A stretch of DNA of 32,421 nucleotides, taken from an uncultured Clostridia bacterium. GTDB taxonomy: Bacteria; Bacillota; Clostridia; Oscillospirales; CAG-272. Location of the stretch: positions 1-32,421 of the forward strand of contig CANQNM010000007.1 of assembly GCA_947625265.1 (NCBI GenBank), written 5' to 3'. Made by a program: the position numbers and the translations under genes. Positions 5,421-22,168 of this stretch are shown piece after piece. The notes beneath the pieces are model-generated. The model had not been told where the DNA came from, did no database searches, and was given only the letters and a program-made list of their open reading frames with translations. Position 1 is the first letter of the stretch; each line of letters starts with the position of its first letter.

Positions 5421-6449
5421 ATGAATATGAATTTTAAGAGAAAACTCCCCATTCCACAGGAAATCAAGAAGATGTATCCCCTGCCCGAGAAATATGTGAA
5501 GATCAAGGCCGAACGGGATGTGGAAATCAAGAAGGTTTTTTCGGGAGAGAGCGATAAATTTTTGCTGATCATCGGCCCGTGCTCCGCAGACAATGAGACT
5601 TCGGTCTTGGACTATATTGGGAGACTGAAGAGACTTTCCGAGCGTGTGAGCGATAAAATTCTCGTTATCCCACGGATTTATACCAACAAACCCCGCACGG
5701 TGGGCGACGGATACAAGGGCATGCTGCATCAGCCGGATCCCACGGAAAGCCCGGACATTCTCAAGGGGATCGTCGCCATCCGCGATCTGCACATGCGCGC
5801 CATCATTGAAAGCGAACTGACATGCGCCGATGAAATGCTCTATCCCGACAACCACAGATATCTCTCGGATCTATTGTCCTATGTGGCGGTGGGCGCGCGT
5901 TCCGTGGAGGATCAGTTCCACCGTCTCACTGCCAGCGGATTGGATATTCCTGTGGGACTGAAGAATCCTACAAGCGGCGATCTCTCGGTGATGCTCAACT
6001 CCATCATCGCGGCGCAGCATCCCCACACCTTTATCTACAGAGGCTGGGAAGTGGAGAGCACAGGCAACCAATATGCCCACGCAATCCTGCGCGGATACGT
6101 GAACAAGCACGGCGAGTCTCAGCCCAACTACCACTATGAGGATCTCATGTTCCTCTATGAACGGTATGAGAAGCAGAATCTGAAAAACAAAGCGGTGATT
6201 GTGGACACCAATCACTCCAATTCGGGAAAGAACTGGATCGAGCAGATCCGCATTGCCAAAGAAGTGCTTCATTCCTGCCGCCACAACAACGACATTCGAA
6301 AGATGGTGAAGGGCCTGATGATCGAGAGTTATATTGAGGACGGCTGCCAGAAAATCGGCGAGGGAATTTACGGAAAATCCATCACCGATCCCTGCATCGG
6401 ATGGGAAAAAACCGAAAGACTGGTCTTGGATATTGCAGACGTTCTTTGA
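5421..6449 (+). CDS. Class I 3-deoxy-7-phosphoheptulonate synthase (DAHP synthase)
   Basis: IIGPCSADNE, RIYTNKPRTVGDGYKGMLHQPDP, GLKNPTSGD, DTNHSNSGK, IEDGCQ motifs of the AroF/G/H family. Confidence 0.95.
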   Translation: MNMNFKRKLPIPQEIKKMYPLPEKYVKIKAERDVEIKKVFSGESDKFLLIIGPCSADNETSVLDYIGRLKRLSERVSDKILVIPRIYTNKPRTVGDGYKGMLHQPDPTESPDILKGIVAIRDLHMRAIIESELTCADEMLYPDNHRYLSDLLSYVAVGARSVEDQFHRLTASGLDIPVGLKNPTSGDLSVMLNSIIAAQHPHTFIYRGWEVESTGNQYAHAILRGYVNKHGESQPNYHYEDLMFLYERYEKQNLKNKAVIVDTNHSNSGKNWIEQIRIAKEVLHSCRHNNDIRKMVKGLMIESYIEDGCQKIGEGIYGKSITDPCIGWEKTERLVLDIADVL

Positions 6450-6541: not shown

Positions 6542-6588
6542 GGAGCATGTGCGCCGGATCCGGCGCACATGCTCCTTATATTTTTTGG
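6542..6588 (+). terminator. Intrinsic terminator formed by a perfect 34-nt palindrome plus T-tract, end of aro operon
   Basis: GGAGCATGTGCGCCGGATCCGGCGCACATGCTCC equals its own reverse complement; followed by TTATATTTTTT. Confidence 0.85.
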
Positions 6589-6703
6589 TGTACTCCCGAA
6601 CTCCCTCTGATTTGCGGGAATTCCTCTGTGGGAGTTTTCTCCTTACAGAAGTCTCGGCTTGAAGGGCAGCAGGGATGGAACGCTTCCTTCAGAAGTTCCG
6701 TGC

Positions 6704-6924
6704 GCGAAGACCTATCGTGCGCGAAGATCCATCGTGCGCGAAGACCTATCGTGCGCGAGGATCCATCGTGCGCGAAAATCCATCGTGCGCGAAAATCCAT
6801 CGTGCGCGAAAATCCATCGTGCGCGAGGATCTATCGTGCGCGAGGATCTATCGTGCGCGAGGATCTATCGTGCGCGAGGATCTATCGTGCGCGAGAATCT
6901 ATCGTGCGCGAGGATCCATCGAAC
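6704..6924. repeat. 17-bp tandem repeat, 13 contiguous units (consensus GCGARGATCYATCGTGC)
   Basis: Units at 6704, 6721, 6738 ... 6908 in strict 17-bp register; last unit degenerate (ends ATCGAAC); array stops 2 bp before the purB stop codon. Confidence 0.97.
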
Positions 6925-10235: not shown

Positions 10236-11066
10236 ATGAGTTCGGCAGACAGAGCGTTTATCGCCACCTGCAAAGATATTCTCGAAAAGGGAACCATGGT
10301 CACCGATCCCAAAGTCCGTCCCCGGTGGGAGGACGGAAGCCTTGCGTATACGAAAAAACTTTTCGGCGTGGTGAACCGCTACGATTTACGGGAGGATTTC
10401 CCTTTGATCACCCTTCGTCCCATCTCCCTTGAGGCGGCGGTGGATGAAGTGCTGTGGATCTGGCAAAAGAAGTCCTCCAATATAAAGGATCTGCACAGTC
10501 ACATCTGGGACGCCTGGGCGGATGAGAACGGATCGATCGGAAAGGCGTACGGGTATCAGTTGGGCATCAAGCACCGGTATAGGGAGGGGATGTTCGATCA
10601 GGTGGACAGGGTACTCTTCGACCTGAAAAACAACCCCTGTTCCAGGAGAATCTTAACCAATCTTTACAATTTTGAGGATCTGCACGAGATGCGTTTGTAT
10701 CCCTGCGCATACAGTGTGACCTTCAATGTGACGGGCAATACGCTCAACGCCATCCTGAACCAACGCTCTCAGGATATGCTTGCCGCAAATGCCTGGAACG
10801 TGGCCCAATATGCGGCGCTGCTGATGATGTTTGCCCAGGTTTCGGGTCTTGTGGCGGGGGAACTGGTGCATGTCATTGCGGATGCGCACATCTACGACCG
10901 CCACATTCCCATTGTGGAAAATCTTCTCTCCCGTCCCACATACGAAGCTCCAAAAGTGACCCTTGACCGATCGGTCACGGATTTCTATGCTTTTACTCCC
11001 CAAAGTTTTGTTGTGGAAAATTACCGTCACGGTGAAAAGATTCCCAAATTTCCTGTCGCAGTGTGA
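10236..11066 (+). CDS. thyA: Thymidylate synthase
   Basis: LFGVVNRYDLREDFPLITLRPIS, LYPCAYSVTFNVTGNTLNAILNQRSQDMLAANAWNVAQYA; RBS GAGAGGAG. Confidence 0.96.
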   Translation: MSSADRAFIATCKDILEKGTMVTDPKVRPRWEDGSLAYTKKLFGVVNRYDLREDFPLITLRPISLEAAVDEVLWIWQKKSSNIKDLHSHIWDAWADENGSIGKAYGYQLGIKHRYREGMFDQVDRVLFDLKNNPCSRRILTNLYNFEDLHEMRLYPCAYSVTFNVTGNTLNAILNQRSQDMLAANAWNVAQYAALLMMFAQVSGLVAGELVHVIADAHIYDRHIPIVENLLSRPTYEAPKVTLDRSVTDFYAFTPQSFVVENYRHGEKIPKFPVAV

Positions 11067-11106
11067 ATCTGACGGCCTTGGAAGGGACAAAAAACCGGAA
11101 ATCCCC

Positions 11107-11135
11107 TTGACAAACCGGTTTGTGCGTGCTACAAT
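11107..11135 (+). promoter_or_regulatory. Near-consensus sigma70-type promoter with palindrome overlapping the -35
   Basis: TTGACA - 17 nt - TACAAT; ACAAACCGGTTTGT palindrome at 11110-11123. Confidence 0.75.
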
Positions 11136-11141
11136 TCCGCT

Positions 11142-11262
11142 TGCGTTCGGAAAAGAAAAGGGCGCGCAGCCGGGTTTGCCGGGAATGTACGGCGATTGTC
11201 CGCCCAACTTTTTTCGGGATCTGAGGTGCGCCAAAAGCGCTTGCGTCCGCAAGTGCTTTTTT
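11142..11262 (+). ncRNA. Candidate ~120-nt structured RNA (sRNA or attenuating leader)
   Basis: Begins at the predicted TSS of the 11107 promoter and ends in a terminator; closing stem GGCGCGC (11161-11167) with GTGCGCC (11226-11232), internal stem GGCG/CGCC (11191-11204); no convincing ORF. Confidence 0.4.
11233..11262 (+). terminator. Intrinsic terminator
   Basis: AAAAGCGCTTGCG-TC-CGCAAGTGCTTTTTT (one G-U pair) with T-tract. Confidence 0.75.
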
Positions 11263-11346
11263 CAATGAGCGAACAAACTGAAAAAATGCCCGAAGGGTGC
11301 AAAGTCCGCCAAGAGGACTCGCAGGTTCGGCGTTCAGAAAATGCCG

Positions 11347-11435
11347 GGCATGGGGATACTTGGCATGGGGATACCTGGCATGGGGATACCTGGCATGAGG
11401 ATGCCGGGCATGAGGATGCCGGGCATGGGGCGCCG
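11347..11435. repeat. 15-bp tandem repeat, about 6 units (GGCATGGGGATACCT / GGCATGAGGATGCCG)
   Basis: Strict 15-bp register at 11347, 11362, 11377, 11392, 11407; sixth partial unit at 11422. Confidence 0.95.
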
Positions 11436-11556
11436 TCTTCGGACGATGACCGCGCTGTCTGTATGCACACGGAGCGGTTTGCGGGCATTTCAAAATTTGA
11501 ACGTTTAAATTTTTGCATAAATAAAAATGTTTAAAAAATTGGAAAGGACGATAGTC

Positions 11557-11910
11557 ATGGCGAAAAAAGCGGCGACGCCTTCCGCACAGCGGGTGGTGAT
11601 CAGCATTGTGTATATATTCATGGGTGTGGGAACGCTTCTTACGGCGTTGGACGTTCTCAAAGGACTTTTTCATGGGGTCATGCCCGGAACCACCTCTCTT
11701 TTGACGGCGGTGGTGGGCGTGATCACGCTTCTTGCGGGAATTTTCGGGCTGTTCAAACTGAAACGGTCAGCCAGCATCTGGATGGGTGTTTTGATTTTCG
11801 CGGTTTCGGTGCTGAATCTTGTTTTTGCGGTGCTGGACTTGGATTTTCACACTGTCGGAACGGCGCTGATGCAGGCGGCGATTGCCTGGCTTTACATCGT
11901 ATGCGTCTGA
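11557..11910 (+). CDS. Small multi-pass membrane protein of unknown function (117 aa)
   Basis: MAKKAATPSAQRVVISIVYIFMGVGTLL..., about four hydrophobic segments; RBS GGAAAGGA. Confidence 0.75.
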   Translation: MAKKAATPSAQRVVISIVYIFMGVGTLLTALDVLKGLFHGVMPGTTSLLTAVVGVITLLAGIFGLFKLKRSASIWMGVLIFAVSVLNLVFAVLDLDFHTVGTALMQAAIAWLYIVCV

Positions 11911-15336: not shown

Positions 15337-15408
15337 AAAAAGGAAGTCTTCGTCCGGGTGCGCGGATGTACGTGCGGACATGCGGGCGCATGGCTGCAGC
15401 AGGCGCGC

Positions 15409-15513
15409 CGGTGCCCGGTGACCGATACCCGGTATCCGATACCTGGTGCCTGATACCTGGTGCCCGATATTCGGTACCCGGTACCCGGTACTCGGTACCC
15501 GGTGCCCGGTGCA
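15409..15513. repeat. 7-bp tandem repeat, 15 units (consensus CGGTACC / CGATACC / TGGTGCC)
   Basis: 105 bp in strict heptamer register upstream of the carboxypeptidase gene. Confidence 0.93.
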
Positions 15514-20836: not shown

Positions 20837-22168
20837 CTACCGATCGCTTAAATATTTTTTGGGATTTACGCTTTTGCCGTTTACGCGGAACTCATAGTGG
20901 ACGTGCGGCCCTGTGACCCGGCCTGTCGCGCCCGAATATCCGACCAAATCGCCCTTACACAATTTGTCGCCCTCTTTGACGGCAACTTTGGACATGTGCC
21001 CGTAGTATGTGACGATGCCGTTTCCATGATCAATAACCACATAAATGCCGTAGCCGTTTCCCGCGTCGCCCGCGTGGATGACCGCTCCGCCGTCCCCGGC
21101 GTAAAGGGGCGTGCCAGTGGGAACGGCGATGTCGATACCGGCGTGCAGTTTGGTTTCGCCGAAAAGATCCCTGTAGCCGTAAAGAGAGGAAATATACCCC
21201 TCCGAGGTGGTCCAAATGAATTCGCCTGTGGCGGCACCCGGCGGGAGCATCCCCTCCCGGATCACTTCATTTGAGGGTGGGACAAGAATCTCCTCAAGAA
21301 AAACCTCCCGGGAAGTTTCCTGTCCGTCTTCGTAGGTTATAAGAACCGTCACTCTTTTTGTTCCGGGATGTCCTTCCGCTTCGACAACGCGCGCACCGAC
21401 GTACAGACTTTTGTCCTCGACGATCACCGTTTCGAACGGGACGGTTTCTTCGTAGGATTCGCTCACCTGCTCTACAATAACCGGAGACAACTGGGGAACC
21501 TGGTGGTTTTCCAGGAACGTCACGACTTTTTCATCTTTCACAAAAAAATCAAACTTCTCTTCCGAACAGCAGACGGCCAGCACCGCTTCTATCTCTTCGC
21601 AGGAAAGCAGATCTTCCTCGGGCACGGTGCAGGAACCGAGAACAGAATTCTTTAACACCGCCTGCCCCTCGCTCTCTTTCAGTTCGGCAAAAGCGTCAAG
21701 AAACGCGTCCAGTGCCTCTTGCAAAGTACCGTCGTCCCGCGCCGCCGCGATCAGCGTACCGTTTATGTAAAGCCCGCGGGCGTCGGTGTACTCGCTCTGC
21801 ACCGCATTGCTCGCGGTGCGCAGGCAACGATCAAAGTTCAAAGGCGTCTCATCGCTTCTTTCCTGACGCAGGGAAAATTCCTTTCGCGGAGTGCGGGACT
21901 CACCCAACTCCCCCTTCAGAATCGTGAGGAATTCTGCTTGGTCAAAGTCCTCTTCCACCCTGCCAATGCGTTGTTCTCCATAGTACAACACGGGGCAAAT
22001 CGGCGTTTCGGGAAGATCCGCAAGGGACAACGCTCCGCTGCAGAGGGAGGACGTAAGGGGCGAATCCTTCAAGTTTCTCTGTGCGAAGAACCCGAAAGAG
22101 AATACGGCCGTCGCGGTCACCATCACTGTTGCGGCGCACGCCGCCAGACAAACGATTCGTTGCTTCAT
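20837..22168 (-). CDS. M23 family metallopeptidase with G5-like domain (cell wall hydrolase)
   Basis: G5-like VPFETVIVEDKSLYVGARVVEAEGHPGTKRVTVLITYEDG; M23 HAGIDIAVPTGTPLYA, GPHVHYEFRVNGK. Confidence 0.92.
   Translation of the reverse strand: MKQRIVCLAACAATVMVTATAVFSFGFFAQRNLKDSPLTSSLCSGALSLADLPETPICPVLYYGEQRIGRVEEDFDQAEFLTILKGELGESRTPRKEFSLRQERSDETPLNFDRCLRTASNAVQSEYTDARGLYINGTLIAAARDDGTLQEALDAFLDAFAELKESEGQAVLKNSVLGSCTVPEEDLLSCEEIEAVLAVCCSEEKFDFFVKDEKVVTFLENHQVPQLSPVIVEQVSESYEETVPFETVIVEDKSLYVGARVVEAEGHPGTKRVTVLITYEDGQETSREVFLEEILVPPSNEVIREGMLPPGAATGEFIWTTSEGYISSLYGYRDLFGETKLHAGIDIAVPTGTPLYAGDGGAVIHAGDAGNGYGIYVVIDHGNGIVTYYGHMSKVAVKEGDKLCKGDLVGYSGATGRVTGPHVHYEFRVNGKSVNPKKYLSDR

Follow-up and report, generated by a model that had tools for sequence, protein, structure and literature searches.

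In the 32,421-nt stretch of uncultured Clostridia DNA analysed here (the window), a promoter and a terminator enclose an RNA of ~100 bases just downstream of thyA, and the question that this arrangement raises is what kind of RNA lies between them. The thyA gene (Pfam PF00303, E 4.7e-82) ends at 11066, and 41 nt further on, on the same strand, the unit starts with its promoter (the sequence of 11105-11262 was read directly). An earlier note had proposed either a free small RNA (sRNA) or a leader of the gene at 11557, which encodes a membrane protein. Our best reading, to which we give a probability of about 0.5, is a stand-alone, lineage-specific non-coding transcription unit that would yield a free orphan RNA. 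Its features are listed in Table 1.

Table 1. Coordinates of the transcription unit downstream of thyA and the basis of each feature
Feature	Coordinates	Strand	Basis
Predicted ~120-nt transcript	11142..11262	+	Promoter and terminator positions; start 11142/11143 from the -10 box, end in the U-run
Sigma-A promoter TTGACA-N17-TACAAT (-35 box 11107-11112, -10 box 11130-11135), extended -10 TGn (TGC)	11107..11135	+	11/12 consensus; top matrix score in the window
73-nt body with 7-bp closing stem (11161-11167/11226-11232), then A11233	11161..11233	+	Minimum-energy fold
Internal GGCG/CGCC hairpin (11191-11194/11201-11204)	11191..11204	+	Pair probabilities 0.96-0.98
Intrinsic terminator AAAAGCGCTTGC-GTCC-GCAAGTGCTTTTTT, then CAATGA	11233..11262	+	Stability far above that of shuffles (z -4.8); type adjoins tRNA genes in relatives

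The promoter had been described as near-consensus, and this description held. A match at 11 of 12 consensus positions with a spacing of 16-18 is expected 0.04 times per strand of a 32-kb window in Markov sequence. When all positions on both window strands were scored with a matrix built from 15 of the genome's own tRNA promoters, the promoter at 11107 ranked first with a score of 30.9, inside the range of the training set (17.5-36.6). When 11095-11234 was searched against 295 family genomes, most matches were short and due to chance, and one set covered the promoter only. Reading these promoter-only matches revealed a clade-wide form, CTTGACAAACCG-N-TGTGCTATAAT; in relatives it precedes tRNA genes, coding genes, and T-box-like and cobalamin-riboswitch-like leaders (leader types assigned by eye), and the same pattern occurs at many tRNA promoters of the genome itself. 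The distance from the -10 box to the body is 25 nt, compared to 9-46 nt at the genome's own tRNA genes. Judged by its sequence, the promoter is real. A perfect 14-bp palindrome, ACAAACCGGTTTGT, lies within it at 11110-11123 and is possibly an operator; we do not claim this spacer palindrome as a regulator site because half of it is the clade's common TTGACAAACCG, the usual -35 extension. Among the window's tRNA-type promoters the runner-up is TTGACAAACCGG-N-TGCTAGAAT at 22243-22215 on the minus strand, in front of a gene on that strand (20837-22168) that by eye resembles an M23 peptidase.

At the other end of the unit, the terminator proved as strong as first described, with a 12-pair stem (pair probabilities 0.73-1.0) followed by a U-run. 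No small ORF stopping before the terminator was found in the unit, and the 27-codon frame that opens at ATG 11185 has no Shine-Dalgarno sequence and runs past the terminator to a stop at 11266-11268, in agreement with the initial view that no credible ORF lies between promoter and terminator. Since no other strong terminator is present between the thyA stop at 11066 and 11233, the terminator might merely be that of thyA, with the promoter driving nothing useful. We consider this unlikely, as a promoter among the window's best, placed 41 nt past the thyA stop, would be wasteful without a product.

A second alternative is that the RNA is a terminating leader (an attenuator or riboswitch) of the gene at 11557, which follows next on this strand and for which the scan gave no separate strong promoter match. 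Against this, no antiterminator was found: forcing the 3' arm of the terminator to be unpaired cost 11 kcal/mol, forbidding the terminator helix cost 17, and the terminator was retained in all near-optimal folds listed. Moreover, 295 nt separate the terminator from the start of the gene, a stretch that contains a 15-bp minisatellite (11347-11430), and the gene has few homologues. No Rfam riboswitch matched and no conserved aptamer upstream of a regulated gene was seen, with no homologues in the relatives searched. The ORF at 11265-11534, which starts in the terminator tail after the U-run, also counts against a leader; it has no Shine-Dalgarno sequence and weak codon-position bias, and its only homologue was a marginal 34-residue match (E 0.01). 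We believe control of the 11557 gene to be highly improbable. Thus, of the two possibilities proposed at the outset, the free RNA is the one that still holds (promoter, terminator, no ORF, no Rfam family), and the attenuator is disfavored by the missing antiterminator, the long gap and the scarcity of homologues. The 15-bp minisatellite yields the open frame 11265-11534 with its (W/G)H(G/E)D(T/A) repeats; further minisatellites in intergenic or doubtful frames of the window lie at 6699-6921 (17 bp) and 15408-15510 (14 bp). A perfect 34-bp palindrome, GGAGCATGTGCGCCGGATCCGGCGCACATGCTCC, was noted at 6542-6575, close behind an aroF-like gene (5421-6449).

The terminator pattern AAAAGCRCTTGC-N2-8-GCARGYGCTTTTTTCAA occurred at 12 further sites in the genomes of 59 relatives, and the reversed control gave 0. 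At 10 of these sites a tRNA gene (Ser, Tyr, Met, Gln, Met, Leu, Gln, Trp, Val and Asn) ended 4-6 nt before the terminator copy, mostly with 4 nt following the CCA end. Since most copies lie behind tRNA genes, the terminator belongs, by its pattern, to a type that is linked with tRNA genes within this order. The usual joint in the relatives is CCAGAA-AAAAGCACTTGC and the joint in the window is GTGCGCC-AAAAGCGCTTGC, so that, unlike in the tRNA genes, AAAA of the terminator follows directly after the stem without CCAGAA. The same terminator type was found at L004, L007 and L020 with no whole adjacent tRNA gene by ARAGORN; L007 retains a stretch resembling a tRNA 3' end (CACCAGAAAAAAAG), perhaps the attachment site of an integrated element. 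The CAATGA that follows the U-run is also present behind the genome's own tRNA-Leu terminators. In the DNA retrieved, no hexamer follows T6 more often than CAATGA, which stands mostly behind tRNA-type terminators (relatives L002, L006, L011, L017 and L080; own genome L089 and L116; window 11257-11268), and the variants CAACTA and CAACGA occur as well. Beyond CAATGA, the relatives have tandem small hairpins linked by (G)TGAAATA or TGATATA.

The body thus stands between a promoter and a terminator of tRNA type, and it also has the dimensions of a tRNA: it is 73 nt long, and the 7-bp stem that closes it adjoins the terminator. Random sequence of equal composition shows this exact 7-pair geometry with a chance of 0.0027, a post hoc figure that is weaker than it appears. 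The leader length is a further likeness to the tRNA genes of the order. The two flanking elements, the shape of the body and the CAATGA tail speak for the main rival to the free RNA: a former tRNA gene has left its promoter and terminator, while the tRNA itself decayed or was replaced, for example by recombination, since tRNAs are common insertion sites, and the RNA is made but functionless. However, the body is not a tRNA gene. ARAGORN found 0 tRNA genes in the window, Rfam returned no tRNA on 11155-11240 even at E 10, and the best alignments of the body to 58 tRNAs of the own genome and relatives were matched by 5-19% of shuffles. The T-loop GTTCRANYC is absent from the body, which also differs from the tRNA genes in having no D-arm or anticodon-arm features. 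Plain decay should have eroded the promoter and terminator too, yet both are intact, and no tRNA was seen downstream of thyA in the relatives read. The neighbours of thyA differ among relatives; in G003 a purB-like gene directly follows thyA. We regard a relic as possible but doubtful. The body could be what remains of a tRNA unit, or else a new RNA that makes use of the ends of such a unit. A version of the latter, in which a regulatory RNA was born inside a tRNA unit whose body was remodelled or replaced to give a non-tRNA 73-nt domain while the promoter, the acceptor-like stem and the terminator were kept, seems to us quite unlikely.

The fold of the body gave a mixed result. Both helices that had been proposed, the 7-bp closing stem abutting the terminator and the internal GGCG/CGCC stem, were present in the minimum-energy fold, with probabilities of about 0.8 and about 0.97, respectively. 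The idea that the body is specially structured was not confirmed by comparison with shuffled sequence: without the terminator its fold was ordinary (z -1.3 for 11155-11232 and -0.4 for 11142-11232), and 18% of 78-nt tiles of the window score equally well. An alternative fold in which the 5' purine tail pairs with the inner U-run was only 1.3 kcal/mol worse. The retention of a promoter and a terminator is no proof of function for the RNA between them.

Searches for related RNAs yielded only chance matches to Rfam at both curated and loose thresholds, consistent with the original remark that the RNA was not recognised as a known class. By blastn, no homologue of the body was found in 59 relatives and 295 family genomes, in which the promoter and the terminator alone matched; the body matches at L042 and L045 were due to chance and lay in apparently coding stretches. 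A single-sequence covariance model recovered the body only in its own genome among the 295 family genomes and four congeners (the genus sample, three of which are at most 80% complete), and a weak match in G002 looks like coding sequence. The conservation and covariation that had been suggested as a check therefore found no homologue to align. Because no homologue appeared among ~300 family genomes or the four congeners, the unit appears to be an orphan without sign of selection on its body. Plasmids, phages and viral contigs gave no match to the body. A 20-mer that matched only Martelella in a genome contig search has 21 bases in common by chance, and a site on C26 of its own genome that the RNA might pair with in antisense (E 0.07) corresponds to no convincing gene. 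With its long interrupted hairpin, the candidate resembles 6S RNA (RF00013) as a stand-alone RNA, but it is shorter and does not match the RF00013 model. The genome has its 6S RNA match at C53:12352-12560; therefore the unit at 11142-11262 is not the genome's 6S. Neither Hfq nor CsrA was matched in the assembly, which is 87% complete; roles for the RNA that depend on Hfq or on binding CsrA are therefore without support.

Returning to the free RNA, we propose that the housekeeping RNA polymerase, recruited by a strong promoter like those of the genome's tRNA genes, would start at about 11142 and would stop in the U-run at 11256-11262. From 5' to 3', the resulting RNA would have a purine-rich tail of ~19 nt, a hairpin domain of 72 nt and the terminator hairpin. 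Transcripts that run on from thyA would end at this terminator, too. If functional, the RNA would act as a free molecule and not through control of the 11557 gene, and the simplest guess is base pairing through the single-stranded 5' tail without Hfq. That the unit is transcribed, where its RNA begins and ends, and whatever function it may have, we infer.

With its own promoter, an intrinsic terminator and no ORF, the unit has the makeup of a free regulatory sRNA locus. Orphan intergenic loci of promoter and terminator are what sRNAscanner is reported to look for (PMC2916834). The unit resembles such candidates in its intergenic promoter, nearby intrinsic terminator and lack of an ORF, and differs in being known from sequence alone and without conservation. 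It is a further orphan sRNA candidate, of a kind already known, and we consider it a modest and unproven small-RNA candidate, not a gene switch. If the RNA is not made or not used, the locus is a reminder that a promoter and a terminator alone do not amount to a structured RNA class. If it is made and used, it would add to the lineage-specific small RNAs of a clade that has been little studied, and would hint that new small RNAs can arise from tRNA transcription units.
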